DNA from: Candidatus Nanoarchaeia archaeon
GTDB taxonomy: Archaea; Nanobdellota; Nanobdellia; Woesearchaeales; DATDTY01
Assembly: GCA_035290625.1 (NCBI GenBank)
Contig: DATDTY010000001.1
Location: 1-34,510 of the forward strand
Length of the DNA stretch: 34,510 nucleotides
Direction of reading: 5' to 3'
The position numbers and the translations under genes are program-made. Under the pieces are notes generated by a model. It saw only the letters and a program-made list of their open reading frames with translations. It searched no databases and was not told where the DNA came from. Of this stretch, positions 17,851 to 34,399 are shown one piece after another; positions within the stretch are counted from its first letter, which is position 1, and every line of letters starts with the position of its first letter.

Positions 17851-17867
17851 GCTGCAGATAGGCATCC

Positions 17868-18063
17868 GGCTTCCCTGAAAATGTAGTTGCCGTCAATTCG
17901 TGAGGCTCTTATACGCTGAGACGCCAAACCGACAAGGGGGTCGTCCCACCCGGGGAATGTCGGTCCTCCAGAAGATCTTTGCAGCCGAGCCGGTGGCTAG
18001 CGAGCAAGCTCGCATTGCTCGCTTGCAAGCCACAGCAACCTCGAAGAGATTTTCAGGGAAGCC
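17868..18063 (+). repeat. Structured palindromic element, copy 1 (A subfamily)
   Basis: A 196-nt element. P1 GGCTTCCCTGAAAAT (17868-17882) pairs perfectly with 18049-18063. P2 is GTTGC (17886-17890)/GCAAC (18035-18039), with CTCGAAGAG inserted on the 3' side. P3 is GTGAGGC with GCCGAGC, including tandem G-A/A-G. Core P4 is ACCGACA (17928-17934)/TGTCGGT (17958-17964). A private hairpin with GCGAGCAA/TTGCTCGC arms lies within 17993-18033. AGGCATCC at 17860-17867 is repeated at 18066-18073, an apparent 8-bp target duplication. Copy 6 shares the P1 sequence. The element fills the space after the pilus operon; the TATA box of the next gene (18080-18088) follows. Confidence 0.85.
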
Positions 18064-18106
18064 CTAGGCATCCTAAACCTTTAAATAGAATATCTTTCTG
18101 TGATTA

Positions 18107-19750
18107 ATGATGAACACGAAGGTTCGACCAAAACTTCTGCTGCTCTGCGCATTCTTGATTCTTGCCCTGTTTGCAGCACAGATTACCTTTCCCGAAGAAA
18201 CATTTGTTGGGAAAGCCGCAGATCTGCCTGAATCAGATGCTTGTGAAGAGGCTGGCATCTTATTTTGCGGACTGATGGTCAGCAGGGATATTGTAAGCTC
18301 GAAGTTCACATCCATGGAACTCAGAGGGATTATTGACGAGACTACTTTGTATCCGCCTCTTGACAACTGGGAAACCGGCGATTGGAATGAGGACGACTAT
18401 ACTCAGGAAATACAGTACCCTGGACCTGACTTCCGCCTTGAGTTTGCTGAAGATCCAGGAGTTCGCGCATGCGGCCTTGAGGATGTTGTTGAAGAATTAA
18501 GAGAAGTAGCAGAAGAGATAGCATTTTTCAGGCTTTTGAAGGAAGGAGGGTATTATGATTCAAGGATCCATCATGTGGATAGAAGGTATCTCAATGAAGA
18601 GGAGCTTCCTGAGTTTGATCCAACATATACAGGGCGCCTTGCAGCAGATTTTTTGGAGCAATGCTCGGAGAATCCGGGGCTGGGAGGCCTGCATCCTCAG
18701 GAAGGAGGGACATTTGCAGACATCTATGGGCGGATTCCAACAGGAAGCTGCGCAATCATTGTTAACCGGGTCATAGACTTGCAGCTTTCAATACTTGAAA
18801 GGAAAAAGGAGGATATCCTGCGGTCTCATGTTCGGGAGGGAAGGTATGCTCCATTCACAGCGGAAGATTTTAATGAAGGGACTGAGGTCAGTGATACAGA
18901 CATATTTGAAGGGGCTAAGAGATTCGCCAGGAATTTTGACAGCGTATTTGATAGATGCAGAGTTTTCTTTAATAGATATAACGGAGATGCATCTGAGGAT
19001 ATCCTCTTTTCTCTCAAGCAAAGGTATTACGGGTATGCGTGTTCTGCATCAAAATCTGTATTTAGGCAATTTAACCCCCCTGAGGACGCACCACCAGTGG
19101 AAAGCCCAATTTATGGAAACGAACAGGGCATTTGTTTAGGCATATCCTCCACAGTCAACAGATTTTTCAGTGATGGAAAGTTCGTGGGAGGCGACTGTAA
19201 GATATCTCAGAGAGAATATGCTGACATGATAAGAGGTGAAGGATGCTTTGAAGTTCCCTGCCAGACCTTTAGCGAATTATTAACAGCAGTATACCCAAGA
19301 GGGAGCCATTCACCCCTCTCAGAGACGACGAGATTCCATCGTGAGCAGAATCAGGAACTGAAGGAATGTATGGCGAGAGAGGGGACCCTAGAAAGGAGAG
19401 GCACGCTGTTTGCGAGATGGTTTGAGTATACTAATCCACAATCTCTGCTGCAAATCGAGGAGCAGGAAATAAATTATTTTGATCTTCTCGATCGAATACT
19501 CGATGGCGAAACGCCTATGATATCAATTGTCGGCACTGCTTTGGGGCCCTCCCATTCAATTTTTGCGCATTCCTGTGATGATGTAGGCCTTATTGAGGTA
19601 TTTGATCCTAACTTCCCCGAAGATACACGTTATCTCAGATACACAGGATCAGGCACGTTTATGGAGCCAACGTTCTTGGAACCCGTCATTATAAGACATG
19701 TTGAGTCTCCTTACACCCCCAGAAACATCTGCCATGAGGAATCTCCTTGA
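18107..19750 (+). CDS. Secreted protein with papain-fold (C58/YopT-like) candidate triad
   Basis: A 547-residue protein with a signal peptide or anchor at residues about 9-26 (KLLLLCAFLILALFAAQ). The mature part is acidic with about twelve Cys, which may form disulfides. Near the C-terminus a Cys-His-Asp order resembles papain-fold peptidases: Cys343 in GICLGISSTVNRFF, His483 in PSHSIFAH and Asp500-Pro-Asn in EVFDPNF. This spacing and the Asp-Pro-Asn context are reminiscent of YopT/C58-type enzymes; the assignment is inference. Residues about 120-330 are helical and of unknown role. TTTAAATAG at 18080-18088 sits about 23-26 bases before the double ATG, giving a leaderless start. Confidence 0.72.
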   Translation: MMNTKVRPKLLLLCAFLILALFAAQITFPEETFVGKAADLPESDACEEAGILFCGLMVSRDIVSSKFTSMELRGIIDETTLYPPLDNWETGDWNEDDYTQEIQYPGPDFRLEFAEDPGVRACGLEDVVEELREVAEEIAFFRLLKEGGYYDSRIHHVDRRYLNEEELPEFDPTYTGRLAADFLEQCSENPGLGGLHPQEGGTFADIYGRIPTGSCAIIVNRVIDLQLSILERKKEDILRSHVREGRYAPFTAEDFNEGTEVSDTDIFEGAKRFARNFDSVFDRCRVFFNRYNGDASEDILFSLKQRYYGYACSASKSVFRQFNPPEDAPPVESPIYGNEQGICLGISSTVNRFFSDGKFVGGDCKISQREYADMIRGEGCFEVPCQTFSELLTAVYPRGSHSPLSETTRFHREQNQELKECMAREGTLERRGTLFARWFEYTNPQSLLQIEEQEINYFDLLDRILDGETPMISIVGTALGPSHSIFAHSCDDVGLIEVFDPNFPEDTRYLRYTGSGTFMEPTFLEPVIIRHVESPYTPRNICHEESP

Positions 19751-19854
19751 TCTGCCACTCGTGTAAGACGTGAAGGCCTCAAACTCTGAACAGAAGATGA
19801 TTATAGTGAAGGTTAGGATGAAGGGCACAAGTGAACCGCTTACCCTGAACTGCG

Positions 19855-20538
19855 TCACTCCACTGTCTTTGACGTGTCAACCTCTATGCCTTCCTTTGTG
19901 ATGTCGAAAGGAAACGTCTTGTCAGGAATTTTTGTTCCCCTCATCTTGATCACTTCGAGCGCCCTGTTTCTTACTCCTTTCTGCTTCCTGTGGTAAAGAA
20001 AGATGATCCCATCCACCTCAAACTCCATCGCTGCAGTCACGCTTTCATCAGTCACATTTCCCTGGCTTGTAAGCACAGCAGTGCAGTCCCATTTGTTGAT
20101 CAGCTCGAATAACGCAAGCGCAGCCTCCTTCTTTGTAAGCTCATCCTCATACAGCAGCACAAATGATGTTATTGAATCAATAACCAGCCTCTTCGCCTTC
20201 ATCTTTTCGATGATATGCTCAATAATGCCCCCCCCTTCAACCAGCACCTTCTTTACCTGCTCAGGAGTATACTCAAGGAATGAGAACTTCCCTTCTTTCT
20301 CGTATTTCGCCAGATCCCAGCCAAATTCCAGCATCGACTCGTATACCTTTTCCTTCTTCTCTTCAAAAGTGATGTAGATCCCAGATTCTCCCTTCTTAAA
20401 TCCCTCTACAAGGAATTGGATGGCAAAGATGCTTTTTCCCGAGCCAGCGGTTCCCGCAACAAGATTGATAGAATTCTTCTGAAACCCGCCTTGCAGCAGC
20501 GTATCAAGCTTGGAAATTCCTGAAGAGACCCGCGGCAT
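19855..20538 (-). CDS. KaiC-like RecA-superfamily ATPase (second of pair)
   Basis: A 227-residue single-domain KaiC-like protein. Walker A GTAGSGKS at residues 29-36, acidic pair Glu59-Glu60 after the second strand (ITFEE), and Walker B RLVIDS with Asp121 are intact. Archaeal KaiC-like ATPases act as signalling or assembly switches, and some regulate motility. The start lies three bases after the stop of the upstream KaiC-like gene and has GAGGGGTAG as ribosome site, so the two are co-transcribed and may form a complex. It ends convergent with the papain-fold gene. Confidence 0.9.
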   Translation of the reverse strand: MPRVSSGISKLDTLLQGGFQKNSINLVAGTAGSGKSIFAIQFLVEGFKKGESGIYITFEEKKEKVYESMLEFGWDLAKYEKEGKFSFLEYTPEQVKKVLVEGGGIIEHIIEKMKAKRLVIDSITSFVLLYEDELTKKEAALALFELINKWDCTAVLTSQGNVTDESVTAAMEFEVDGIIFLYHRKQKGVRNRALEVIKMRGTKIPDKTFPFDITKEGIEVDTSKTVE

Positions 20539-20541
20539 TGC

Positions 20542-21264
20542 CTACCCCTCTTTCTTAAAGTCCTTCTCGAACAAAGAAAAGGGCAGTTGGTCATGGAATA
20601 TCTTGACGCCTTTTCCATCTATGGTAAAGGGGTAGATGTCAAGCATATGGTCCTGGTTCCGCATTTTTGCTATCGTAAGGATGCGCTCAAATGACGAGGA
20701 TCTCCGCACCTTTGAGAGGAGGATCAGCCCATCGAAGAGAAAGTCCTCAGGCTCATACTCAAGCTCATCAAGATGCGTAAAGGGCTTCTCTGCTGTGGCC
20801 ACAAGCGTGACACTCGCTTCTTTCATTCGCAGGATAAAGTCAAGCACTTCCTTCCTGTAGTCCATCTCCCCTGCCACATGGATATAGCCGAAGAGGGTCA
20901 AAGAATCCAGCACGACGCGTTTGATCCGCTTTTTCTTGATGATCTCAAGAGGAGTGACAATCGACATCAGCTTTTTTGACGAGATTGACTGTTTGATGAA
21001 GGTAAGCAGGCCTTTCCGTTCCAGATCATCCAGGCCGGGGTATATCTCCCTGCCCGTCTCGCGGATCGAATCAACTTCTTCCTCTGAGGTTATGTACAGC
21101 CCGGGCTCCCCAAGCTTGGCTCCAGCAATCATGAACTGCATCGTCATCATTGTTTTTCCGGTTCCAGGCGCGCCAGTCACAAGGACACAGTTGCCCTGAA
21201 GAATTCCGCCATAGAGAATCTCATCCAGCCCCGGAATGCCTGTTTTTATCCTTGCATGTTGCAT
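20542..21264 (-). CDS. KaiC-like RecA-superfamily ATPase (first of pair)
   Basis: A 240-residue protein starting MQHARIKTGIPGLDEILYGG, the typical KaiC-family opening. Walker A GAPGTGKT is at 31-38, Glu61-Glu62 follow ITSEE, and Walker B RVVLDS ends at Asp120-Ser121. ATG 21264 is preferred to a start at 21363 because TTTTTATATC (about 21286-21295 on the plus strand) lies 26 bases upstream, and the extension would lack KaiC similarity. It leads a two-gene operon with the ATPase at 19855. Partner and target are unknown. Confidence 0.9.
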   Translation of the reverse strand: MQHARIKTGIPGLDEILYGGILQGNCVLVTGAPGTGKTMMTMQFMIAGAKLGEPGLYITSEEEVDSIRETGREIYPGLDDLERKGLLTFIKQSISSKKLMSIVTPLEIIKKKRIKRVVLDSLTLFGYIHVAGEMDYRKEVLDFILRMKEASVTLVATAEKPFTHLDELEYEPEDFLFDGLILLSKVRRSSSFERILTIAKMRNQDHMLDIYPFTIDGKGVKIFHDQLPFSLFEKDFKKEG

Positions 21265-21298
21265 AGACCAGCTACCAGCACAACTGATATAAAAAGAT

Positions 21299-21673
21299 TT
21301 AGGTCTTTGAGAGCCTGTCAGGCCCATTGAAGAACACAGCAAAAAACCCGGCAGCAAGGGCAAGATCCCTCACCATCACATCATTATATCCAAGATTGAT
21401 GGCAATAAAGAGCACATGGATAAAGGCAATGAAAGCTGCAACCCTCACAATAAATCCTGACAGGAGCAGAAGGCTCAAAGCAATTTCAAATACTCCATTT
21501 GCAGCGACAAGCAGGGTTGTGTTTGCAACAGCATCAGCCCAGCCAGGAACATAGGAAGCCCAGTTGTCCGGAGACGCCACCTGCCACACCCCAAACCAGA
21601 GCAGAAAGATTCCCAGGCTTATCCTGAGGATTACTGGCCCATAGGACGAATCAATCTTCATCCAACCACTCAT
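21299..21673 (-). CDS. DoxX-family membrane protein
   Basis: A 124-residue protein from ATG 21673 (MSGWMKID), with GAGG close upstream; ATG 21682 is an alternative. The open frame runs to 21883 but that part lies in structured element copy 2 and is not coding. Four membrane spans: residues about 14-32 (ILRISLGIFLLWFGVW), 48-66, 70-90 and 98-118, matching DoxX-type proteins found in quinone-linked or thiol oxidation systems. A second DoxX-like gene lies at 33273. The substrate is unknown. Confidence 0.8.
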   Translation of the reverse strand: MSGWMKIDSSYGPVILRISLGIFLLWFGVWQVASPDNWASYVPGWADAVANTTLLVAANGVFEIALSLLLLSGFIVRVAAFIAFIHVLFIAINLGYNDVMVRDLALAAGFFAVFFNGPDRLSKT

Positions 21674-21709
21674 ATTCCTCATCTTTTTAAGGGTTTTTAT
21701 TTTGATGGA

Positions 21710-21879
21710 GGTTGGTGCGAAATTGAAGGTTGCCATCATTTTGTGAGCAACATCGCTAATGAATAAGCATCGACATCGAGGGGGATGCCCCATGGAGGAC
21801 GAATGTCGATTATCACAGAGATATATGCCATGTGCGAACTCGATGGCAACCCGAGCATTGCGAGAATTTCGCACCAACC
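21710..21879 (+). repeat. Structured palindromic element, copy 2 (D subfamily)
   Basis: A 170-nt element. P1 GGTTGGTGCGAAATT (21710-21724) pairs perfectly with 21865-21879. P2 GGTTGCCATC (21728-21737) pairs with GATGGCAACC (21842-21851), with CGAGCATTGCGAG inserted on the 3' side. P3 is GTGAGCA with TGCGAAC, including tandem G-A/A-G. Core P4 is ATCGACAT (21769-21776)/ATGTCGAT (21803-21810), enclosing GGGGGATGCCCC. No clear flanking duplication is visible. A TATA-like CTTTTTAAG at 21683-21691 lies about 24 bases upstream. It sits between the divergent DoxX and DUF357 genes. Confidence 0.83.
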
Positions 21880-21927
21880 CCATTTTTACACATAAACTTT
21901 TAAACCTGTTGCAGTTTCAGGTACACC

Positions 21928-22218
21928 ATGAATATCATCACTGATGAAAAGCTTGAAAAGTATTTTTCCATCACGCAAAGAGCGCTTCTGAAGGCAAAGG
22001 CAGTAAAAAAGAAAGCAGAGATTGACTTTGAAGAGAAGGCGCTTGAATTCCTTGACATGGCCCAGCGCTACTTTGACGATGCAAAACATTTTGAGAAGAA
22101 AGGGGATATCGTGACTTCCTTTGCCTGCCTGAACTATGCCCACGGCTGGCTTGATGCAGGAGCGCGGCTTGGCCTCTTTGATGTTGGAGGAGACTCAACA
22201 CTTTTTACTGTGGATTAG
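21928..22218 (+). CDS. DUF357 family protein
   Basis: A 96-residue helical protein (MNIITDEKLEKYFSITQRAL) matching the archaeal DUF357 family: a Lys/Ala-rich first helix, a second helix with ALEFLDMAQRYFDDAKHFEKKGD, and the conserved end SFACLNYAHGWLDAGARLGLF. The function of the family is unknown. TTTTAAAC at about 21898-21905 is 26 bases from ATG, so the gene is probably leaderless, with its promoter starting about 20 bases after element copy 2. It ends overlapping the convergent peroxiredoxin gene by four bases. Confidence 0.85.
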   Translation: MNIITDEKLEKYFSITQRALLKAKAVKKKAEIDFEEKALEFLDMAQRYFDDAKHFEKKGDIVTSFACLNYAHGWLDAGARLGLFDVGGDSTLFTVD

Positions 22219-22682
22219 CGCACTCTCTTCACTATGCCCAGCACATCAGCGGCATGGCCTTTCGGCTCCACACTCCTCCAATGCTCTGCAATCCTTCCCT
22301 GAGGATCAATAAGCACAGTGCTTCTGATAACTCCTTCAATCTCCTTGCCGTACATCATCTTCTTCCCCCAGGCGCCATACTGCTTAATCACTCTTTTGTC
22401 AGGATCGCTTAAGAGCCTTACTGTTAAGCCGTGCTTTTCAATGAAGTTACAATGGCTTTTCCCAGAATCCGGGCTGATTCCAAGCACAACTGCATCGCTC
22501 TTGTCAAACTCTTTGCTAAGCCCCGAGAACTCGATTGCCTCGATGGTGCACCCCGGCGTGTCGTCTTTTGGATAGAAATAAACAACAACAAATCTCCCTT
22601 TCAGGTCTTTCAGGCAGACATCTTTCTCATCCTGATCCCTGAGGCAAAAATCAGGCGCTTTCATCCCTTTGGTGATCTCCAT
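22215..22682 (-). CDS. bcp: Peroxiredoxin, PrxQ/Bcp type
   Basis: A 155-residue thiol peroxidase that reduces hydrogen peroxide and alkyl hydroperoxides. The active-site motif is YPKDDTPGCT with peroxidatic Cys45; the downstream Arg is in VIRSTVLID. The usual PrxQ second Cys five residues after the first is replaced by Ile50; Cys78 in KSHCNF could instead resolve, as in PrxQ forms with the resolving Cys in helix 3. TATA-like sequence at 22703-22710 is about 24 bases from ATG 22682. It stands divergent from the Cys-rich membrane genes and CcdA, which suits a thiol-redox neighbourhood. Confidence 0.92.
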   Translation of the reverse strand: MEITKGMKAPDFCLRDQDEKDVCLKDLKGRFVVVYFYPKDDTPGCTIEAIEFSGLSKEFDKSDAVVLGISPDSGKSHCNFIEKHGLTVRLLSDPDKRVIKQYGAWGKKMMYGKEIEGVIRSTVLIDPQGRIAEHWRSVEPKGHAADVLGIVKRVR

Positions 22683-22785
22683 GGCGAACAGTCAGAAACA
22701 GGATATATTTCCATGTTGTGATTTTTGCTGATTCCAAGAGCACAGATTCACAAACTTTATAAACGCCATCACAAGCCTTCACACT

Positions 22786-23493
22786 ATGAAACTCGAAGGT
22801 AAGTTTGAAAGTATAAGCATTGGGCTTGTTGGTGTGCTGGTTCTCCTCGTTGTTGCAAACCAGGCCCAGATATCGAGCATTTCAGGATCTACAACAGGAT
22901 CCAGCATAGGACTGGGTTCAGGCTTGAGGCTCGGCAGAGGCACTGCTGATCTTGCTTCAGTGGACATCAATGAGATCAGGTCAACAGCGCAGGGCATTGC
23001 AACGCTTTTCCCTGTAGAAAAATTATCAACAGCAGAAGGGGCAATGCAAGCCATGTTTCCGACAGGAACTCCAGAGTATGGAGATGCGATGGGAGTGACA
23101 TTTGATGATCCTATCGGAGCCTTGACAAAGCTCTCAAACGCCTATCCTGCATTGGACCAACAGGCAAGAGGAAATCCAGAGGTTTGGCAACGATACATTA
23201 ATCTTGCTTCAGAGCCAAGAGGCGTAAGCTGCGAGTTCTGCTGCGGTGTCGGAGCAGCAGGCATCTCAAAAGATGGCCGCTCACTCTGCGGCTGCCAGCA
23301 TGCTCCTGCTCTTTTAAGCGTCACGCTCTGGCTGCTTATGAACACAGACTACAATGACGCGCAGATACTGCAGGAAGTATACCGCTGGAAAACCCTTTTC
23401 TTCCCGAGGAATATGATTGAGCTTGCAGGCAAGGTTGCAGGCGGAGACAGTTCAGTGTTAAATGATTTGCCAGGAATGGTAGGAGGATGTTAG
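22786..23493 (+). CDS. Cys-rich membrane-anchored protein with C-terminal LPGMVGGC tail
   Basis: A 235-residue protein with one N-terminal membrane span (about 9-29), a Gly/Ser-rich linker and an extracytoplasmic domain. A cluster Cys149-x2-Cys152-Cys153, then Cys168-x-Cys170-x-His172 (CGCQHAP), looks like a metal- or thiol-active site. The last residues are DLPGMVGGC, ending on Cys235. The next gene ends NLPQMVGGC with different codons, so the tail is conserved at protein level. TTTATAAA at 22756-22763 gives a leaderless start. No family name recognised; proximity to PrxQ and CcdA suggests thiol or metal chemistry outside the cytoplasm. Confidence 0.75.
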   Translation: MKLEGKFESISIGLVGVLVLLVVANQAQISSISGSTTGSSIGLGSGLRLGRGTADLASVDINEIRSTAQGIATLFPVEKLSTAEGAMQAMFPTGTPEYGDAMGVTFDDPIGALTKLSNAYPALDQQARGNPEVWQRYINLASEPRGVSCEFCCGVGAAGISKDGRSLCGCQHAPALLSVTLWLLMNTDYNDAQILQEVYRWKTLFFPRNMIELAGKVAGGDSSVLNDLPGMVGGC

Positions 23494-23494
23494 C

Positions 23495-23713
23495 ATGAAA
23501 AAGGAAGTATTGATAACCATTGTCTTGGCTGTCTTGGTATTGGTATCTTTGGTTCAGGCTCTCCAGCTGAGAAGCCTTAAAAGCCAGATTGAGACAGGTA
23601 GCTTTTCTGTGCAGACAAAGGCTGCTGCTACGCCAGTGGCGTCAGGAAGCGCCGGAAGCCCAGCATTGCCGCAGAGCCTGGATAACCTTCCGCAGATGGT
23701 CGGAGGATGTTAA
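23495..23713 (+). CDS. Small membrane-anchored protein with C-terminal LPQMVGGC tail
   Basis: A 72-residue protein: one membrane span at residues about 5-23 (LITIVLAVLVLVSLVQAL), an Ala/Ser/Gly/Pro-rich flexible linker, and a C-terminus SLDNLPQMVGGC with the only Cys as last residue. It starts two bases after the upstream stop and shares only the tail with that protein, so it looks like a minimal carrier of the tail motif. The exposed terminal Cys might form a thiol, lipid or metal link, or be a recognition signal. All of this is inference. Confidence 0.72.
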   Translation: MKKEVLITIVLAVLVLVSLVQALQLRSLKSQIETGSFSVQTKAAATPVASGSAGSPALPQSLDNLPQMVGGC

Positions 23714-23786
23714 TCTTTTGTGAAGGGGCAGATTCTTTGTTCTTTTCTGCTTCTCATCTCTCAAGCATTGCTGCATTTGGGGATGG

Positions 23787-24248
23787 ATGATGAATGGTTT
23801 AATTCTTGGGATGTTATCTATGGTCATGCTTCAGGCTTGTGCTCAGGCCAGTGAGGATAACCCTGATATGCTGGCCATCAACCTAATGGACTATAAGACC
23901 TTAGCATTCCATATGCATCCTCATCTTGAGATTGAGATTCTTGGGGAGCAGTATGTCATCCCAGCAAATATAGGCGCATCGCGCCAGGCGATTCGCGTGA
24001 TCCACACCCATGAGCCTGACGGAACACTGCATGTTGAGTCTCCTTATCCTCATCAGTTTGTACTGGCAGACTTTTTTACAATCTGGGGAGAACGTTTTGA
24101 TAAAACGTGTATCTTTAATTACTGCATTGATGAAGAGCATGAACTCCTTGTGTTTGTCAATGGAGGGCAGAGCGATTTGTATGAGAATACCCCCCTCAGG
24201 GAAGACGATGAGATAAAGATAGTTTATAGGAAGTCTATAGGAGAGTAA
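23787..24248 (+). CDS. Lipoprotein-like protein with HMHPH and HTHEPDG histidine motifs
   Basis: A 153-residue exported protein (double ATG at 23787/23790). The leader ends MLQAC, a lipobox-like site with Cys18. Residues about 42-100 hold the conserved series HMHPHLEIEI, YVIPANIGA, VIHTHEPDGTLHVESP and FVLADFFTIWG, a family I know only as uncharacterised, found in archaea and bacteria near thioredoxin, DsbD-like or copper proteins. The His clusters suggest metal binding. Cys109 and Cys114 (TCIFNYC) may form a disulfide. It precedes ccdA by 27 bases, probably in the same transcript. Confidence 0.78.
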   Translation: MMNGLILGMLSMVMLQACAQASEDNPDMLAINLMDYKTLAFHMHPHLEIEILGEQYVIPANIGASRQAIRVIHTHEPDGTLHVESPYPHQFVLADFFTIWGERFDKTCIFNYCIDEEHELLVFVNGGQSDLYENTPLREDDEIKIVYRKSIGE

Positions 24249-24275
24249 AGAACAAGAACCAAGAAGGGAATAGAC

Positions 24276-25271: not shown

Positions 25272-25302
25272 ATTTAAATATGGTCTGTGCTTTGCAATAT
25301 GA

Positions 25303-26363: not shown

Positions 26364-26764
26364 ATGAGCCAGAGTCCATGGACACTCTTGTGTACTTTAC
26401 CAACAGAACCATTGGCAATGGCCATATCAAGGCGTGGGTATATAAGCAGCAGTGCTCCCAGTGCAAAGGAATGATGGGTAAGCCGAAGGGCGCAAAGGGG
26501 AAGGTAAAGATCAGGGCGCAGAATTATGTCTGCAATGAATGCGGATTTTCAGTTCCCAATGAAGAATATGAGGGCGGGCTCAAAGTTCAGGTCAAGTACA
26601 CCTGCCCTTCCTGTAGCAACAGGGGGGAGGCAGAGGTTCCTTTTAGGAGGAAGCGCATCAATGGTGTTGAAACCGTGCGCATCGAATGCAGCCACTGCCA
26701 CGCATCCGTTGACATTACAAAGAAGATGAAGGAGAAGAACGCAGGCGAGCAGGAAAAGCAGTGA
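26360..26764 (+). CDS. Zinc-ribbon protein (134 residues)
   Basis: I chose ATG 26360, which overlaps the preceding stop (ATGA), over an upstream TTG. The protein has four Cys-x2-Cys knuckles: CSQC, CNEC, CPSC and CSHC. They make two zinc ribbons (about residues 32-62 and 81-115), separated by a basic segment (KPKGAKGKVKIRAQN), with a Lys-rich C-terminus. Such proteins usually bind nucleic acid or protein; nothing shows the target. The start of the methyltransferase-like gene follows after 24 bases. Confidence 0.8.
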   Translation: MNEPESMDTLVYFTNRTIGNGHIKAWVYKQQCSQCKGMMGKPKGAKGKVKIRAQNYVCNECGFSVPNEEYEGGLKVQVKYTCPSCSNRGEAEVPFRRKRINGVETVRIECSHCHASVDITKKMKEKNAGEQEKQ

Positions 26765-26788
26765 GGCCGAAAGCTTTGTGGATATAAC

Positions 26789-27592
26789 ATGCCAAAAGAC
26801 TGGAGCGACGAGTTTGTGCACCACTGGAATTATTTCATAGGTCCTGCCAGAGCATCTCCTTCTGACTTAAGGTTCATAAAAAAGAAGATTCTCGAGAAAG
26901 ACAGGGATGCAAAGGTGCTTGTTTTGGGAGCAACACCTGGATACAGGAACCTGTGCGGAGAGTTGGACATTCCTGTAACACTTATTGACTTCAAACGATA
27001 CAATTATGAGTACCTCTCAGATGAAGTCAAGAATAAACCAAAAGAGAGGTTTGTGGAAGGTAATTGGATGGATACAGTGCTGCCTGAGAAGTTTGATATA
27101 ATCCTCGCAGACAATGTTCTGAATGTTGTTCCAACTAAAGAGAATATACGGATTGTCCTTAAAAACGTAGCCAGTATGCTAAAGAAAGATGGGCTGTTCA
27201 TGCCGAGAACTTATGTAAGGGGAAAAAATGAAAGGATTGATCCTGAAAAGGTCATTAAGGAGTACAGGAAAAAGCGGGACGGAAGTGACCTTTACACATG
27301 GCTCTCAAGGGATTTATATCTGGCTGCATATGATTTTAAAGAGGATGTTGTCAGATTTAAGGATATCTGGAAGGTTATAAAGAAGATGCATGACAATGGC
27401 CTTTTTACTGATGAAGAGCTCAAAGAGTGGAGGAACAACTCGTTTGAGAATAGGGAATTCCATTTTATAATCCCTGTAAAAGAAGAGATTGAGGAGATTC
27501 TTTCAGAATTCTTCAATATTAAGCAGGTGTTCTGCGGAACCGAAGAATATATACACGAAACACTTCCGTTGTATGTACTTACATTGAAATGA
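26789..27592 (+). CDS. Class I SAM-dependent methyltransferase-like protein
   Basis: A 267-residue protein with a Rossmann methyltransferase core. Motif I is VLVLGATPGYRNL (about 45-57), the acidic end of strand 2 is TLIDFKRYN, motif II/IV is FDIILADNVLNVVP, and a post-motif LKKDGLFMPRTYVR follows. The C-terminal 100 residues are helical and probably hold the substrate site. No substrate family recognised. It is downstream of the zinc-ribbon gene and may share its transcript. Confidence 0.82.
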   Translation: MPKDWSDEFVHHWNYFIGPARASPSDLRFIKKKILEKDRDAKVLVLGATPGYRNLCGELDIPVTLIDFKRYNYEYLSDEVKNKPKERFVEGNWMDTVLPEKFDIILADNVLNVVPTKENIRIVLKNVASMLKKDGLFMPRTYVRGKNERIDPEKVIKEYRKKRDGSDLYTWLSRDLYLAAYDFKEDVVRFKDIWKVIKKMHDNGLFTDEELKEWRNNSFENREFHFIIPVKEEIEEILSEFFNIKQVFCGTEEYIHETLPLYVLTLK

Positions 27593-27859
27593 ACCTAATA
27601 GCCCAGGTGGCAGAGGCAGAGTTGTTCCGGCTCACTTTATGTTAAGCATGATCTTCGTGAAAAAGGTATTGGAACAAAGCCGTTGCAGTATGTTGAGAAA
27701 TATGCTAAAAAGAAAGGATTGAAAGAATTGAAATTAGGTTCAACTATAACCGCTTTAGATTTTTACAGAAATAGAGGTTACAAAACCATAAAGAAAAAAT
27801 ATTATGTGGTCCTTCAAAGTGTTAGAATACCTTGCATCCTGATGTCAAAAAGATTGTAA
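27589..27859 (+). pseudogene. Broken GNAT N-acetyltransferase remnant
   Basis: The frame open to TAA 27857 encodes KHDLREKGIGTKPLQYVEKY and continues with AKKKGLKELKLGS, ALDFYRNRGYK and a normal end: the acetyl-CoA loop and C-terminal half of a GNAT enzyme. Upstream the matching residues (VAEAELFRLTL) lie in another frame that stops at about 27645, so at least one small indel near 27640 disrupts the gene, and the N-terminal half is missing. A start ATG at 27589 overlaps the methyltransferase stop. Acetyltransferase activity is therefore not expected unless the frameshift is a sequencing error. Confidence 0.7.
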
Positions 27860-27891
27860 AGGCACCAAAACTCAATTGAAAGTAACAACCC

Positions 27892-28482
27892 TTAGATAAA
27901 CTCCTCTTTCTTCCGCTTTCTAAGCAGCAAGCCTATACCAAAGGCTGCTGCAAGCGCTGCAAGCAGGATAAGGGGGCCGGTAAGAGAGCCTTGATCAGCA
28001 GCGTTCTGTCTGCACTTGTAGAATCTTGTGTCACAAGCTCCGTTCTTACAGTCGCTGTCCTCCTCGCATTCTATCTTTGAAAGAGGCAGGACAGTCATGC
28101 TTCTCTTTGCATCAGGGCAGATCATTGCCGGATCATCAATCTTGTCTGTTATGATAACTGCTTCAATGCAGGTAAGGTAGTCAAATGTTCTCACACCTGC
28201 AATGGGGGGCCTGATTTTCCATGGAAACACTGCCTTGCCGGTTGCATTAGGCCCAAGCTGGAGGTTGGGATGGTAGGAAGCAAATATTGTCTTGGTCTCT
28301 GCCTCCTGGAGAAGGACAGAAGCGACATGCGTTGTAGCATTGATATTATTCCATATCAGGAAGGTTATGTTTGCTTCAGTCCCTTCCCTGCAGTGGGGAT
28401 CGCTGCACTGTATAGTCGAGGAAAAAGCCGCAGATACACTCTGGCTTGCAAGAACCAATAAAACGATGGCAAGGAAACGCAT
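27892..28482 (-). CDS. Surface protein with signal peptide, Cys-rich stem and C-terminal anchor
   Basis: A 196-residue type I membrane protein. Signal peptide at 1-19 (cleavage near VSAAF); an extracytoplasmic beta-rich domain with Asn-x-Thr/Ser sites; a Cys-rich stretch ECEEDSDCKNGACDTRFYKC (about 137-156) resembling small disulfide modules; then one membrane span (about 170-187) and a basic cytoplasmic tail RKRKKEE. TTAAATATCC (28502-28511 on the plus strand) is 26 bases from ATG 28482, predicting a leaderless transcript. Function unknown. Confidence 0.8.
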   Translation of the reverse strand: MRFLAIVLLVLASQSVSAAFSSTIQCSDPHCREGTEANITFLIWNNINATTHVASVLLQEAETKTIFASYHPNLQLGPNATGKAVFPWKIRPPIAGVRTFDYLTCIEAVIITDKIDDPAMICPDAKRSMTVLPLSKIECEEDSDCKNGACDTRFYKCRQNAADQGSLTGPLILLAALAAAFGIGLLLRKRKKEEFI

Positions 28483-28539
28483 TCCAGCGGAGTTAACAGA
28501 GGGGATATTTAAGTCTTTTGAACCTGCCTGAAATCAATC

Positions 28540-28701
28540 GGCGCCATTGAAAGGCAATGCAATGCCTCATCATGAGCCATTGAAGCAAGGTAGGAGCAGC
28601 GACAAAGGGGTTGCTCCACACGGGAAATGTCGCCTAGCAGCAGAATCTGTGATTGGCGAATCTGGCATTGCCGAGCGAAGCGAGAGCTTTTCAATGGCGC
28701 C
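28540..28701 (+). repeat. Structured palindromic element, copy 3 (C subfamily)
   Basis: A 162-nt element. P1 GGCGCCATTGAAA (28540-28552) pairs with 28689-28701. P2 GGCAATGC (28553-28560) pairs with GCATTGCC (28665-28672), with GAGCGAAGCGAGAGC and one T on the 3' side. P3 is ATGAGCC with GGCGAAT, including tandem G-A/A-G. Core P4 is GCGACA (28599-28604)/TGTCGC (28628-28633), enclosing AAGGGGTTGCTCC. CAATCG flanks it at 28535-28540 and 28705-28710. P1 and P2 sequences are unlike the other copies, yet pairing is kept. It stands head to head with copy 4 on the other strand. Confidence 0.83.
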
Positions 28702-28709
28702 CGCCAATC

Positions 28710-28911
28710 GGCTCAGTAGAAAGTCAGCCGGCATCAGGCTCGCTTGCGCTTGTATTCGTGTATGCTGACACCCCCGAAGGTGCTAAAAAGAGCTACGCTC
28801 TTTTGGCACACCAAAACGCCCGACGGCGTTTTGATTGGGGCAACCCTCTGTCAGCAGCGGTTATGATTGCGAAGAAGCTCGCAGAAAGGATGCCGGACTT
28901 TCTACAGAGCC
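28710..28911 (-). repeat. Structured palindromic element, copy 4 (F subfamily, reverse strand)
   Basis: A 202-nt element, the reverse-strand relative of copy 7. P1 GGCTCAGTAGAAAGTC (28710-28725) pairs with 28896-28911 with one mismatch. Compared with copy 7, the change C to A in one arm is matched by G to T in the other, a compensatory pair. P2 is CCGGCATC/GATGCCGG (28728-28735/28889-28896). Core arms are GCTGACA (28764-28770) and TGTCAGC (28849-28855). A hairpin cassette at 28776-28833 enlarges the core and is nearly identical to one in copy 5. CCGCCAATCG flanks it at 28701-28710 and 28912-28921. Confidence 0.83.
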
Positions 28912-28968
28912 CCGCCAATCGTTAAATTTAAATATTCAGAAAAGCCCAGCCCCTTCGGGGATGGAAAG

Positions 28969-29097
28969 ATGAAAAAGCAGAAATCAGCCCAAGTTCCAGA
29001 AACTGAGGAGAGGAAGTGTCCAGAGTGCGGAAGCAGGGATATTGGCACTGATGAGACTGAGATGTACTGCAAAAAGTGCGGCTATGTCTTTGAGTGA
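28969..29097 (+). CDS. Small TFB-like zinc-ribbon protein (42 residues)
   Basis: From ATG 28969 (MKKQKSAQVPETEERKCPEC). Two Cys-x2-Cys knuckles, CPEC and CKKC, enclose SRDIGTDETEMY; the pattern resembles the N-terminal zinc ribbon of transcription factor B, without the cyclin-like repeats. An AT-rich TATA candidate (AATTTAAATATT, 28925-28936) gives a short leader. The open frame upstream of 28969 lies in element copy 4 and its flank and is not coding. It could be a free-standing zinc-ribbon regulator; similar tiny proteins are common in archaea. Confidence 0.72.
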   Translation: MKKQKSAQVPETEERKCPECGSRDIGTDETEMYCKKCGYVFE

Positions 29098-29218
29098 TGG
29101 CTGCTTCTTGATGGATAAATTCTACAAAACCTGCCCTAGTATACTTTTTTCACCATCAGCCCGCACAAAATTTATAAAGGATGATTGCTCAGAATAAGTA
29201 AGGGGGGTGGGTAAGATT

Positions 29219-29344
29219 ATGAACCAATCTAAAATCCATGACATCGTTGTGGTTGAAGATGGTTCGCTTATCCATAAGCAGGTCGAGCAAAGGCATGGGT
29301 TGCTCTTTATGCGAATAAAGAAGCGGCATGTCTTTGTGACCTGA
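29219..29344 (+). CDS. Possible small basic protein (41 residues)
   Basis: ATG 29219 opens MNQSKIHDIVVVEDGSLIHK and the frame runs to TGA 29344, ending KKRHVFVT. TTTATAAAG at 29171-29179 is a good TATA box, and GGGGGGTGGG at about 29202-29211 could serve as ribosome site, so the start is plausible. A six-codon open frame (29181-29201) precedes it in the leader. The sequence has the alternating pattern of a small beta-rich protein and is basic. No family recognised; the opposite-strand frame here appears to be a shadow. Confidence 0.45.
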   Translation: MNQSKIHDIVVVEDGSLIHKQVEQRHGLLFMRIKKRHVFVT

Positions 29345-29466
29345 CTTGTTCTGCAGTTAAGAGTGGCTAAGAGTGGCTCTTGGGAGAACAGCACCTGTTT
29401 GTAAGCTTCCTTACAGAATAATCTACTGCCCCAAGATATGCCAAAGAAAGATTCTAAGATGAGATC

Positions 29467-29709
29467 CTAATGATACCGTAGAACACGTATCTCTTCATGC
29501 TGTTTCTGCTCTAAAGGCAGGTTTGCCTGCACTGCAACTTCAAAGGGATCTCCTTTATGATGCAGCAGAACAAGGTTTGCCTGCGTCTCAAAATAGACAA
29601 AATGCCTTTGCCATCCGTGCTTGTCAGGCTGGTAGAAGAGCTTTTCAGTATTCAGCTGCTCCGCAAGCCTAATGAACTCTTTCATTCCGTTGATTTGCAG
29701 AATAGGCAT
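29467..29709 (-). CDS. Hypothetical protein (80 residues)
   Basis: A small soluble protein (MPILQINGMKEFIRLAEQLN) with an alternating hydrophobic pattern, five His and no Cys. A TATA box at 29731-29739 is about 26 bases upstream of ATG 29709, consistent with the leaderless pattern of neighbours. No family recognised. It is divergent from structured element copy 5. Confidence 0.62.
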   Translation of the reverse strand: MPILQINGMKEFIRLAEQLNTEKLFYQPDKHGWQRHFVYFETQANLVLLHHKGDPFEVAVQANLPLEQKQHEEIRVLRYH

Positions 29710-29730
29710 AGCCCTCTTTGGGCGTGCATC

Positions 29731-29739
29731 ATTTATATA
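29731..29739. promoter_or_regulatory. Bidirectional TATA box between hypothetical gene and element copy 5
   Basis: ATTTATATA reads as a TATA box on both strands. Leftward it predicts initiation at ATG 29709; rightward it predicts initiation near 29760, the first base of P1 of element copy 5 (29759). Confidence 0.5.
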
Positions 29740-29758
29740 GTTTCTTGTTTTAGGCAGC

Positions 29759-29963
29759 GTTCAAAATTTGGGTTGCCGCCTGCTTGTGAGCAACCTACCT
29801 AGAGTAGGCGCATCGACAAGGGAGTTGCCCCAGCCAAAACGCCATCGGGCGTTTTGGTGTGCCAAAAGAGCGTAGCTCTTTTTAGCACCTTCGGGACATG
29901 TCGATATACACAGATATGCAGAGATTGCGAACTTGGCGGCAACCGCTGAATGAGATTTTGAAC
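29759..29963 (+). repeat. Structured palindromic element, copy 5 (E subfamily)
   Basis: A 205-nt element. P1 GTTCAAAAT (29759-29767) pairs with 29955-29963. P2 GGTTGCCGCC (29771-29780) pairs with GGCGGCAACC (29935-29944), with GCTGAATGAG on the 3' side. P3 GTGAGCAA pairs with TTGCGAAC including tandem G-A/A-G. Core P4 is ATCGACA (29812-29818)/TGTCGAT (29899-29905), carrying GGGAGTTGCCCC and a hairpin cassette (29834-29891) nearly identical to that of copy 4. CTTGTTTTAG at 29744-29753 recurs at 29968-29977, four to five bases outside P1 on each side. Confidence 0.83.
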
Positions 29964-30141
29964 ACAGCTTGTTTTAGAGCCGAGATCATGATTACGAATT
30001 TCAAAATGAACCTCAGATTGCCTATAAGCACAAAATTTTCAGGTTGCAAAGCCCAGGGTATCAGCTTTTATCCTGATTTCCAAAAAGTTTATATACTAAC
30101 CACAAGTAGTTCACAGTAAATCCTAATACCGAGGTGAAAAA

Positions 30142-30288
30142 ATGGTGCAAGGGAGATGTATGAAATGCAAGAAGCAGGTTGATATCAAGAACGGTAAGGA
30201 GACGACCATGAAGAATGGGATGAAGGCAGTAAAGGGAGAGTGCCCATCTTGCGGCACAAAGGTTTTCAGGATTCTTGGAAAGGCTTAG
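30142..30288 (+). CDS. DUF5679-like small zinc-binding protein (48 residues)
   Basis: ATG 30142 stands behind GAGGTGA. The protein MVQGRCMKCKKQVDIKNGKE continues to GECPSCGTKVFRILGKA: two Cys-x2-Cys pairs around a Lys-rich, Gly-containing middle (MKNGMKAVKG), as in the DUF5679 family. The role of this family is unknown. TTTATATAC near 30088-30096 gives a TATA box with a leader of about 25 bases. It ends seven bases before the TatD gene, so the two are probably co-transcribed. Confidence 0.82.
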   Translation: MVQGRCMKCKKQVDIKNGKETTMKNGMKAVKGECPSCGTKVFRILGKA

Positions 30289-30295
30289 GCCTTTT

Positions 30296-31060
30296 ATGAT
30301 TGACTGCCATTGCCACCTTGACCACCCTCTCTTTGATAAGGACAGAGACCAGGTGGTTGAGGCAGCAAAAACATCTGGGATTTCTGTTATCATTACCAAT
30401 GGCATAGACCCTGGAACAAATAGGAAATCCCTGGAGCTTGCCAGGAGGTATAGCATTGTAAAAGCTGGCCTTGGCGTCTATCCCAGAAGCGCAATCAAGC
30501 ATGAGACTGAGCAAGAGGGAAAAAAGTACACCTCCTTTGATATTGGTGAGGAGCTTGGGTTTATCACAGATCATAAGAAGGAGGTTATTGCTATAGGGGA
30601 GGTTGGCCTGGATGGTGTCCGGGGCATCGATACTCCCCAAAAAAAGGACTTTGAACTCATGATTGAGCTGGCAGAAAAGCTCAAAAAACCCATCATTGTG
30701 CATTCGCGCAAGGCTGAAGCTGAAGTGCTTGCCTTGCTTGAGACCTCAAAGCTAAAAGTAATCCTGCACGCCTTTCATGGCAAAAGGAGGCTCGTCCAGA
30801 AGGCAATTGACAATGGCTGGTATTTCTCAGTCTCTACCCATATAGCCAGGAGCCAGGAGATGCAGTACATAGCTAAGGAAGCTCCCTTGTCAAAGCTGTT
30901 TCCAGAGACAGATGCTCCGTTCCTCAGCCCATTTCCAGGAAAGCGCAATGAGCCTGCTTTTGTTATTGAAGCAATTAAGAAGATTGCCGAAATAAAAGGC
31001 CTGGATATGGAGGAAACATCCAAGAATATCTGGAAAAATTACCAGAAGGTGTTTGTGTAG
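30296..31060 (+). CDS. tatD: TatD-family metal-dependent DNase/hydrolase
   Basis: A 254-residue TIM-barrel hydrolase from ATG 30296 (a TTG at 30275 would overlap the DUF5679 gene). Metal ligands of the family are present: His5 and His7 (DCHCHLD), Glu102 (IGEVGLD), His136 (IVHSRKAE), His158/His161 (LHAFHG) and Asp206 (PETDAPFL). TatD enzymes are metal-dependent 3' to 5' nucleases or deacylase relatives; the usual length is about 255-265, so this is complete. Confidence 0.93.
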   Translation: MIDCHCHLDHPLFDKDRDQVVEAAKTSGISVIITNGIDPGTNRKSLELARRYSIVKAGLGVYPRSAIKHETEQEGKKYTSFDIGEELGFITDHKKEVIAIGEVGLDGVRGIDTPQKKDFELMIELAEKLKKPIIVHSRKAEAEVLALLETSKLKVILHAFHGKRRLVQKAIDNGWYFSVSTHIARSQEMQYIAKEAPLSKLFPETDAPFLSPFPGKRNEPAFVIEAIKKIAEIKGLDMEETSKNIWKNYQKVFV

Positions 31061-31103
31061 GGAGCAAGCAACCTTAATATAGAAGGCTTCATTCCCCCTC
31101 TTT

Positions 31104-31931
31104 ATGCACAGGAGAGCTTTTCTGAGCCTAACCCTCACAGCAGCGGCTGCTGCCTGCACCAAGATGCAGGGATTAGAAATGACCATTGCTGATGCATCGA
31201 AAGACCACAGCAGAGCATTGCAGCTTGGCCGCCAGTGGATGGCTGAAGGGAAATTCGGCGAAGCCAGGGCTGCACTAGAGGTTGGTGTGCAGGGATATAC
31301 GCTCCGGCAAGACTTGAACCTGAATCTCTACATGTATAACGAGGGCCAATTTCAGCCCCTAACCCAAGAACAAAAGGACGTGCTCATGCAGTTCTATGAT
31401 GCCTTGGGCCATGCCTGCGCAGCAGCGCAGCAATTCTCCATTGCTTTGGGGTATTTCCAGCAGACAGTCTTCATCGATCCCAGCAACCCGGAGCATTTTA
31501 TGGCATTTGCAAAAACCAGCGCTGAGATATTTAATGATGAAGCAGCAGAGGGATTAAGGCTTCCTTATGAAACCCTCTTAAAGCGTCATGTTCGAGTCAT
31601 CCGATACCCTCCAATGGTTGTGATGAATGCAAGCGTAGCTGCATATTTAGAATGTGACTCCCGGCCTGGCCAATGGCAACTTGCGAATCAGGTATTCCAG
31701 GAATACACGAGATATCTAAAGGATGTTGCCATGGAGCTGTCACGAAGGGACATAGCATGTAGCATCCAAATCCCTAATGAAGAGAGCAACCAGGAAAAAT
31801 GGGATATCGCAAGGCAGATGTACCAGCAAGACCCTTATTTTACAGTCCGATATCAGAATTATCTCCCAGGGATGATCCATTTTGCAATCCCCCTGCAAGA
31901 AAAAAGGCCTAATACTTCAAACAGCCTGTAA
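31104..31931 (+). CDS. TPR-containing lipoprotein with twin-arginine-type signal
   Basis: A 275-residue protein. The N-terminus MHRRAFLSLTLTAAAAACTK has Arg-Arg-x-Phe-Leu, a hydrophobic stretch and a lipobox-like Ala-Ala-Ala-Cys18, so it is probably exported by Tat and lipid-anchored. Residues about 35-60 (LGRQWMAEGKFGEARAAL) and about 95-130 (ALGHACAAAQQFSIALGYFQQTVFIDPSNP) are TPR-like helical pairs. No catalytic motif is seen, so it is likely a binding scaffold at the cell surface. CTTAATATA at about 31073-31081 gives a leaderless start. Element copy 6 follows 16 bases after the stop. Confidence 0.75.
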   Translation: MHRRAFLSLTLTAAAAACTKMQGLEMTIADASKDHSRALQLGRQWMAEGKFGEARAALEVGVQGYTLRQDLNLNLYMYNEGQFQPLTQEQKDVLMQFYDALGHACAAAQQFSIALGYFQQTVFIDPSNPEHFMAFAKTSAEIFNDEAAEGLRLPYETLLKRHVRVIRYPPMVVMNASVAAYLECDSRPGQWQLANQVFQEYTRYLKDVAMELSRRDIACSIQIPNEESNQEKWDIARQMYQQDPYFTVRYQNYLPGMIHFAIPLQEKRPNTSNSL

Positions 31932-31947
31932 GATGCCAGGAATAACT

Positions 31948-32144
31948 GGCTTCCCTGAAAATGGCGTTGCCGTCAATCTGCGAGGCTCTTGACCTTAAAG
32001 ACTGAAAACCGACAAGGGAGTTGCCCCCATGGAGGAATGTCGGTCCCCCCGTCATATGCGCGGCCGAACCGACGTGCTCCGAAGGAGCGCCCGGAAATGT
32101 TTGGCATTTCCGACGGCAACCTCGAAGAGATTTTCAGGGAAGCC
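31948..32144 (+). repeat. Structured palindromic element, copy 6 (A subfamily)
   Basis: A 197-nt element, sister of copy 1. P1 GGCTTCCCTGAAAAT (31948-31962) pairs perfectly with 32130-32144. P2 GTTGCCGTC (31966-31974) pairs with GACGGCAAC (32112-32120), with CTCGAAGAG on the 3' side. P3 is GCGAGGC with GCCGAAC, including tandem G-A/A-G. Core P4 is ACCGACA (32008-32014)/TGTCGGT (32038-32044), enclosing AAGGGAGTTGCCCCC. It has two private hairpins: GCTCC/GGAGC, and GGAAATG/CATTTCC. GGAATAAC at 31939-31946 is repeated at 32145-32152, a clean 8-bp duplication. Confidence 0.86.
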
Positions 32145-32189
32145 GGAATAACGCAAAGCCTTTTATACCTGTTTTGCCTATAAGCCTCT

Positions 32190-32498
32190 ATGAAACTGAC
32201 TCTGGACACCAAAGAGGACTCGCATGAGCATTTGAGGCACGTGATTGCGATGCTTCAGAGTATTATCGGAGGTAGTGAGCAGGACGTCCATGAACCTGGA
32301 CAGCAGCCTGTAAGTCAGGACCAAGGCTTTGTCAATCTGTTTGGTGATGCTGCAATCAGCCCATCGCCTCCTGAGCAGAAAAAGGATTCCGGCCTTGATG
32401 TTGACCCTGCAAAGATCCAGGACATCCTGCAGAAGGCAAGCTTAGAAAAGGCGCGCCTGTCTGAGACCAAAGAGTTCAAGATGGAGGAATATCTTTAG
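32190..32498 (+). CDS. Hypothetical acidic protein (102 residues)
   Basis: Starts MKLTLDTKEDSHEHLRHVIA, an amphipathic first helix, followed by a Pro/Gln/Asp-rich disordered middle (about 30-75) and a charged C-terminal helix. TTTTATAC at 32161-32168 is 26 bases upstream, so the gene is leaderless and its promoter begins about nine bases after the duplication flanking element copy 6. I recall similar openings in DPANN hypothetical proteins but cannot name a function. Confidence 0.72.
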   Translation: MKLTLDTKEDSHEHLRHVIAMLQSIIGGSEQDVHEPGQQPVSQDQGFVNLFGDAAISPSPPEQKKDSGLDVDPAKIQDILQKASLEKARLSETKEFKMEEYL

Positions 32499-32546
32499 GA
32501 TGCATTTCATCTAACGCTTCTCGCCTTGCAGAACGAATTTAGAAAT

Positions 32547-32993
32547 CTAAAATCTCCACACCCTCTTCCCGTTTCTATGTATCGCTCTCACCCTGTGGAT
32601 AGGAATAAAAATCTCCTTGCCACGCTCATGGATATGGATGATATTCTTCTCGATGCGCCGTATCTGGGCTGCCTTGAACTCTATCTCCTTTTTTCTCACC
32701 TTATCCAGATACCTGATCCTGAACTCGTTCCTTTGCGGATGCGCCTGAACAGAATTGAGAATCTTCAGAGTGCCCTGCTCCAATCCTCCCAAAGGATCAA
32801 ACTCCTTGAGGATAATCCCTGAGAACGTAAGTATCGCCAAGCCAATAAACAGGCTGACAAAAGGCTCTTCAAGTATAGGCAACGCTCCAAACCCTTCCCA
32901 TATCCCACGCCAGAAGAAGATGATTCCTGTCGCTCCAAGAAGTGACCAGAGAAAATGCTTGTCTGACTCACGCAACTGATAGATACTACTCAC
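32547..32993 (-). CDS. Membrane protein with C-terminal DUF504/MJ1316-like domain
   Basis: A 148-residue protein: two membrane spans (about 13-30 and 45-65), then a basic soluble domain (about 85-148) reading RYLDKVRKKEIEFKAAQIRR and ending IFIPIHRVRAIHRNGKRVWR. The Ile-Pro-x-His-Arg-x-x-x-Ile...Gly-x-x-Val-Trp end is the DUF504 (MJ1316, RNA cyclic-end recognition) signature; the membrane anchor is unusual. Archease, an RNA-ligase cofactor, lies 0.75 kb away. A TATA box at 33022-33029 and AGGTGAG before ATG 32993 support the start. Confidence 0.75.
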   Translation of the reverse strand: MSSIYQLRESDKHFLWSLLGATGIIFFWRGIWEGFGALPILEEPFVSLFIGLAILTFSGIILKEFDPLGGLEQGTLKILNSVQAHPQRNEFRIRYLDKVRKKEIEFKAAQIRRIEKNIIHIHERGKEIFIPIHRVRAIHRNGKRVWRF

Positions 32994-33021
32994 CTCTTTT
33001 GGATGCTTTCAGGCATTCGGG

Positions 33022-33029
33022 TATAAATA
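33022..33029. promoter_or_regulatory. Bidirectional TATA box between MJ1316-like gene and element copy 7
   Basis: TATAAATA within GTATAAATAC is near-palindromic. Leftward it suits transcription of the gene starting at 32993; rightward it would start transcription near 33050, at the left arm of element copy 7 (33044). Confidence 0.45.
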
Positions 33030-33043
33030 CGTTATGGTTTTGT

Positions 33044-33187
33044 GGCTCAGTAGCAAGTCCGGCATCATTCCTGCGAGCTTCTTCAGCTCCATAAGCAGTG
33101 CTGACAGAGGGTAGGCCCCTTCGGGGGTGTCAGCATACACGAATACAGGCGCAAGCGAGCCTGATGCCGGCTGACTTGCTACTGAGC
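33044..33187 (+). repeat. Structured palindromic element, copy 7 (F subfamily)
   Basis: A 144-nt element, the most compact copy. P1 GCTCAGTAGCAAGTC (33045-33059) pairs perfectly with 33173-33187. P2 CGGCATCA (33060-33067) pairs with TGATGCCG (33162-33169). P3 GCGAGCTT pairs with AAGCGAGC including tandem G-A/A-G. Core P4 is GCTGACA (33100-33106)/TGTCAGC (33128-33134), enclosing GGGTAGGCCCC and a CCCC-TTCG-GGGG hairpin. GGTTTTG flanks it at 33036-33042 and 33189-33195. It lies between the MJ1316-like gene and a DoxX-like gene. Confidence 0.84.
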
Positions 33188-34375: not shown

Positions 34376-34399
34376 AAGTCAACACGCGTGTGTTGACTT
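34376..34399. repeat. Inverted repeat at the end of the transposase gene
   Basis: AAGTCAACAC (34376-34385) and GTGTTGACTT (34390-34399) are perfect complements around GCGT. The hairpin spans the transposase stop codon and may be the insertion-sequence end or a terminator. Confidence 0.6.

Follow-up and report, generated by a model that had tools for sequence, protein, structure and literature searches.

Seven intergenic elements that share one fold are found in a 34,510-nt stretch of DNA (the window hereafter; contig DATDTY010000001.1, assembly GCA_035290625.1) from Candidatus Nanoarchaeia archaeon, a member of the order Woesearchaeales. What kind of element keeps its interior while its ends vary? 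An earlier note, made from the letters of the window, had described the seven as a dispersed family that was not a simple MITE (miniature inverted-repeat transposable element), and had proposed a mobile structured RNA, a single-stranded-DNA hairpin or an archaeal counterpart of ERIC/BOX-type elements. The analysis reported here indicates that the elements are probably MITEs after all, i.e. non-autonomous transposons that depend on IS5-family DDE transposases acting in trans, in a family that would be defined by its folded core.

Terminal inverted repeats and target-site duplications

The outer stem of the elements, P1, is a terminal inverted repeat (TIR) of 14-16 bp. With at least 11 of 14 end positions matching, a TIR was present in 92 of 117 copies from the genome that holds the window (own genome) and in 70 of 117 copies from other genomes. 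Perfect target-site duplications (TSDs) of 8 or 9 bp flanked 31 of these 92 and 25 of these 70 copies (56 in total), compared to 0.5 and 0.7, respectively, in a control in which right flanks were swapped and boundaries re-optimised. At least nine TIR types surround one core in the own genome. Among these TIRs the variation is concentrated at positions 4-9, where the left and right ends are nevertheless 86-99% identical; positions 10-13 (mostly GAAA) hardly vary. The best pair of full-length copies is 98.8% identical and the median identity to the nearest relative is 87%, so some of the activity was fairly recent. The copies are about 136-220 bp long, which leaves no room for a transposase gene inside.

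Partner insertion sequences

Genes of the DDE_Tnp_1 family were found in 10 of 25 carrier genomes. Several of them sit in insertion sequences (ISs) of 887-1076 bp bounded by TIRs of class 1 (a second class is described below), and three of these ISs have TSDs of 8-9 bp. Five partner transposases had their best match in the IS5 model NF033579, with 93-139 bits, below the curated cut-off of 140. Autonomous partners were found for several TIR types, in two cases within the genome of the MITE itself: in genome G066 the IS L201 and the MITE L124 have the TIR GGCTCTGTCCTAAAT in common, and in G064 the IS L208 and the MITE L154 have GGCTCTGTAGAAAA in common.

A search of the own genome with PF01609 gave no match. 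The IS5 model did find one IS there, L303 (C49:19040-20006), which is intact and 967 bp long, with a perfect 16-nt TIR (GGCTCGATTGCAAGTT) and a 294-aa transposase. Further L303 ends lie at the ends of contigs C25, C41, C42, C50 and C74, and several recent copies have therefore probably been collapsed in the assembly. Two near-identical 219-bp MITEs, L314 (C15:2072-2290) and L317 (C30:15139-15357), bear the L303 TIR and have no folded core. Matches to one TIR type, 76 in the own genome, are nearly all paired about 136-240 nt apart, none at the spacing of an IS, and no IS-sized TIR pair with a TSD was found among an earlier set of loci. An IS1595 partner (PF12762), which the TIR had suggested, was absent from the 25 carriers.

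From the TIRs, the 8-9 bp TSDs and the matching IS5-family ISs, we infer that the elements are MITEs, and that they transpose. The model of the core (R1, see below) had no match inside the matching autonomous ISs, so the core is not a remnant of the sequenced ISs and the interior does not appear to derive from them. The contrast with a simple MITE drawn in the earlier note overlooks that the ends are TIRs with TSDs and have IS5-family partners; what sets the elements apart is a core that stays constant while the ends are exchanged.

Copy number and distribution

The covariance model R1 covers the core (helices P2, P3, P4 and P5) and was trained on the window elements E1, E2, E3, E5 and E6. It recovered all seven window elements, including the untrained E4 (E 1e-7) and E7 (E 6e-11). 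Applied to the own genome (84 contigs, 1.37 Mb), R1 returned 137 matches with E<=1, almost all of them at much lower values. This number exceeds chance by far and corresponds to about 130 copies; 150 of 254 candidates were scored, and a few copies were counted twice at two contig ends. E7 alone, used as a DNA query, had 35 matches there. At E<=1e-5, R1 matched in 88 of 353 Woesearchaeales genomes and 70 of 220 genera, both counts being minimum values, since the scoring was limited to ten candidates in each genome. The further copies that a covariance model should find if the family was real, in this genome and in others, are thus present, as are the constant fold and the variable ends.

The exact pattern of the P4/P5 hairpin occurred in at least 107 stretches among 84,980 species, each represented by one genome, and all 80 matches listed lie in records named Woesearchaeota, Nanoarchaeota, Nanoarchaeia or 'archaeon'. 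The core pattern had no match in 2.9 million viral contigs, and an E6 query had none in phages or plasmids. No Rfam family matched the elements, either at gathering thresholds or at a permissive E<=1.

Fold and covariation of the core

In the core, P2 is followed by an internal loop of 5/2 nt, by P3, which contains a tandem G.A step (YGAR), by P4 and by a three-tract hairpin, P5. In many copies a further hairpin of the G.A type, P6, identified by reading the sequences of individual copies, lies between P2' and P1'. P1, P2, the G-A/A-G pairs of P3 and the GACA/TGTC arms of P4 are present as the earlier note had described them. The interior of P4, given there as GGG..CCC, is better described as a hairpin of CCCC/GGGG joined by a GGGG strand on its 5' side, which covaries with the hairpin.

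Covariation was measured on alignments that were fitted to R1 and hence are biased towards it, with relatedness uncorrected. A set of 92 distinct sequences, all from named genomes other than the own genome and none used to build the model, has 96.6% of its cells paired, compared to 69.9% when shuffled; both sides change in 24 of 26 pairs, and the covariation score is 0.581 (0.161 shuffled, 0.06-0.08 slid). All sets, whether own-genome, other-genome or mixed, agree: their scores lie at 0.47-0.59, compared to 0.16-0.22 after shuffling and 0.04-0.09 after sliding. The two strands of P3 read NN-GA-NNNN / NNNN-GA-NN, and the flanks covary. Its GA/GA step is preserved unchanged in 127 of about 144 copies (sets A3 and A5), and such a conserved mismatch is not expected of a duplex-bound inverted repeat.

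The purine tracts of P5 mirror each other. A left AAGGG goes with a right GGGAAA (Fisher 2e-19), and a left AGAGGG with a right GGAGAA (Fisher 6e-9), both values being uncorrected for relatedness. This mirror relation fits a three-strand purine arrangement, short of proof. An ordinary antiparallel pairing between the 5' GGGG and CCC is less likely, although short versions of it may form. That the core is kept while the end sequences are swapped suggests that the fold itself is under selection. Judged from covariation and from the searches, the defining trait of the family is this constant folded core behind exchangeable ends, and not the TIR.

A second class of ends

The same core is also found in class-2 elements, which have an unrelated TIR (GTAWTNNTTYAGC) and 8-bp TSDs, read from the sequences as TGTGGATT in L161, GCACTTTC in L090, CTCTCCGC in L094 and CAATTATC in L285. 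Class-2 elements as small as 131 bp still hold the core. They are often Y-shaped, and the second arm can carry a degenerate core on the opposite strand; L152, L161, L090, L286 and L290 have two cores, one on each strand. In genome G070 the class-2 TIRs occur 206 times. In L070 and L080 (genome G030), core copies lie within another kind of inverted repeat (CGTTTTTCACTC...), which may represent a third end class.

Selection at the DNA or the RNA level

The pairs of the core are almost purely Watson-Crick, with GU at about 2.5% and AC at 1.6% of all cells. Within subfamilies, single changes gave GU 17 times and AC 19 times, which resembles neutral decay. In the subfamily consensus, GU made up 5 of 287 pairs (1.7%), compared to 12 of 121 (10%) in a small control, the stems of eight tRNAs from related genomes (p 4e-4). 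The low GU content and the GU:AC ratio of 17:19 favour selection at the DNA level. The random orientation of the copies to genes and the mirror relation in P5 are further hints in this direction. The core may thus well act as DNA, the most likely of its possible roles, a view that we hold with slightly less than even confidence and that agrees with the single-stranded-DNA hairpin among the options of the earlier note.

On this basis the following mechanism can be proposed. IS5-family DDE transposases would move each copy in trans, duplicating 8-9 bp of the target. The element would become single-stranded in replication, or extrude as a cruciform, and the fold would then pair both ends (P1) and bring them next to each other, which would allow any transposase at hand to synapse so short an element. 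Copies that lose the fold would cease to amplify, and the ends might drift in concert until they fit a new transposase. Going further, the core could be a transposase-independent mobility module, a conserved single-stranded-DNA fold that lets short elements be used by several unrelated transposases, and that has outlived and switched its transposases across an archaeal order. This wider idea of a module is tentative and rather speculative. The fold in question would combine a tandem sheared G.A helix with a mirror-purine hairpin, the latter possibly a triplex.

Several observations weigh against this interpretation. Some copies, such as L120 and L145, have neither TIR nor TSD. L303 is the only IS5-type IS found in the own genome, its TIR resembles that of E7 at 12 of 16 positions, and most TIR types of the own genome have no IS partner in that genome. 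The two or three MITEs of L303 itself have no folded core, so the core is not required for every MITE. For class 2, a partner transposase was not found, and no IS-sized TIR spacing was seen among the places listed. Mobility is deduced from TIRs, TSDs and matching ISs. With regard to the level of selection, the tRNA control is small, and the cross-genome GU:AC ratio of about 2:1, with four odd pairs set aside, fits some RNA-level selection.

Alternative explanations

The last point bears on the mobile structured RNA proposed in the earlier note. According to this explanation the core is transcribed and acts as RNA, by binding protein, by regulating or as a catalyst, and either owes its spread to transposons or helps them to spread. 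Strong compensatory covariation across 70 genera, a complex fold that includes a three-way junction as well as tandem G.A, the modest cross-genome excess of GU over AC and the same core behind unrelated ends are all compatible with it. The rarity of GU pairs relative to tRNA stems and the equality of GU and AC within subfamilies speak against it, as do the lack of an Rfam match and of a clear bias in orientation to the flanking genes. The sense, antisense, divergent and convergent positions numbered 14/8/9/3 and 15/15/14/10. A structured RNA is on balance rather unlikely.

The elements could also be ordinary IS5-derived MITEs, typical of their kind in size, TIR and TSD, whose palindromic interior is kept perfect without any function. 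Template switching or copying between copies corrects palindromes. Such correction would, however, erase the tandem G.A mismatch, which is instead exact in most copies, and the core accompanies many TIR types and is found in a further TIR class as well. This explanation appears improbable. Host selection for a cis-acting mRNA element, such as an ERIC- or Correia-like processing site, an attenuator or an insulator, would suit copies that are intergenic at a median distance of 60-80 bp from open reading frames, several of those in the window lying directly upstream of TATA-like promoters; it is disfavoured by the occurrence of sense, antisense, divergent and convergent placements, and seems quite improbable.

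An HUH (Y1) transposase that moves the elements as REP-like hairpins is a very improbable explanation. In its favour are the fold of a single strand, the six matches to Y1_Tnp in the own genome and further Y1_Tnp matches in 14 of 30 carriers. Against it, Y1 transposition makes neither TIRs nor 8-9 bp TSDs, matching DDE insertion sequences exist, and no Y1_Tnp was found in the other 16 carriers (metagenome-assembled genomes, which are incomplete). The Y1_Tnp genes of the own genome (IS200/IS605 or RAYT-like) lie at six places, including C49:16170-16517, the larger ones encoding 175-186 aa.

The elements of the window

All seven elements proposed in the earlier note were confirmed (Table 1), with the span of E5 corrected from 29759-29963. 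E2 has no clear TSD; its sister copy L034, with a TIR identical to that of E2, has a TSD of 9/9. Insert A is a 58-nt hairpin in the P4/P5 loop, common to E4 and E5, that recurs at the same place in other copies. The inserts of E1 and E6 lie between P3' and P2', and that of E1 (insert B) likewise recurs at the same place in other copies. A lone palindrome (AAGTCAACACGCGTGTGTTGACTT), apparently intergenic, is found at 34376-34399 of the window.

Table 1. Folded elements of the window and their target-site duplications.
Feature	Position	Strand	TIR	Details	R1 score (bits)
E1 core element	17868-18063	+	GGCTTCCCTGAAAAT	insert B 17991-18033; P4/P5 17930-17962	82.6
E1 left TSD TAGGCATCC	17859-17867		 	right copy 18065-18073, offset one base	
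E2 core element	21710-21879	+	GRGGTTGGTGCGAAAT	element about 21708-21881; P4/P5 21771-21808	109.5
E3 core element	28540-28701	+	GGCGCCATTGAAA	P4/P5 28600-28632; no clear TSD	105.6
E4 core element	28710-28911	-	GGCTCWGTAGAAAGTC	insert A 28779-28836	40.5
E4 TSD CCGCCAATC	28701-28709			9/9; other copy 28912-28920	
E5 core element	29754-29968	+	GCWGYGTTCAAAAT	insert A 29832-29889	104.8
E5 TSD TTGTTTTAG	29745-29753 / 29969-29977			9/9	
E6 core element	31948-32144	+	GGCTTCCCTGAAAAT	insert 32070-32110; P4/P5 32010-32042	74.7
E6 TSD GGAATAAC	31939-31946 / 32145-32152			8 bp	
E7 core element (shortest)	33044-33187	+	GGCTCAGTAGCAAGTC	P4/P5 33102-33132; TSD 7/9	54.3

Relation to known elements and significance

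By mechanism we regard the elements as IS5-type MITEs, and by anatomy as nearest to ERIC; the comparison with ERIC/BOX-type elements was apt. They resemble IS5-family MITEs, which have IS903-like ends, in a TIR that starts with GGC and has GAAA/AAAT near its inner end, in TSDs of 8-9 bp, in a size of about 150 bp and in autonomous IS5-type partners with an identical TIR; they differ in a core that does not come from the sequenced ISs and is common to many TIR types and a second TIR class. ERIC is an intergenic imperfect palindrome with up to hundreds of copies per genome, according to a 2024 review of prokaryotic MITEs (PMC10969869). The Woesearchaeales elements, set beside ERIC by description, are also intergenic imperfect palindromes of similar size, but they are archaeal, their ends diverge while the core stays, and they have 8-9 bp TSDs and identified transposase partners. 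In its passages on archaea, the same review lists MITEs in Sulfolobus, Halobacterium, Haloquadratum and others; Sulfolobus SM1-SM4 and other archaeal MITEs likewise reach tens of copies per genome, but those passages describe no shared folded core for SM1-SM4 and do not mention Woesearchaeota (PMC10969869).

With REP/REPIN sequences and their RAYTs the elements share a single-strand hairpin as the conserved unit. REPs, however, have no TIR or TSD and much shorter hairpins, and the mobility without TIR and TSD of REP/RAYT or IS200/IS605-like elements does not describe elements that have both. A literature search on Woesearchaeota or DPANN archaea with MITEs or structured RNA yielded nothing relevant; subscription papers and preprints lay outside it, so priority is not firm.

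The elements also account for part of the breaks between contigs in these assemblies. It is normally the ends that define a MITE; in this family the internal fold is constant and the ends are exchangeable, with a copy roughly every 10 kb in a DPANN genome of 1.4 Mb and a spread over some 70 genera. If the core acts as DNA, this would mean selection for a single-strand DNA structure in transposition beyond HUH elements and integrons. A role as RNA would instead make it a large family of Woesearchaeota RNAs that has so far gone unrecognised. In both cases, later work can start from a covariance model that has been tested, from named loci and from the matching insertion sequences.

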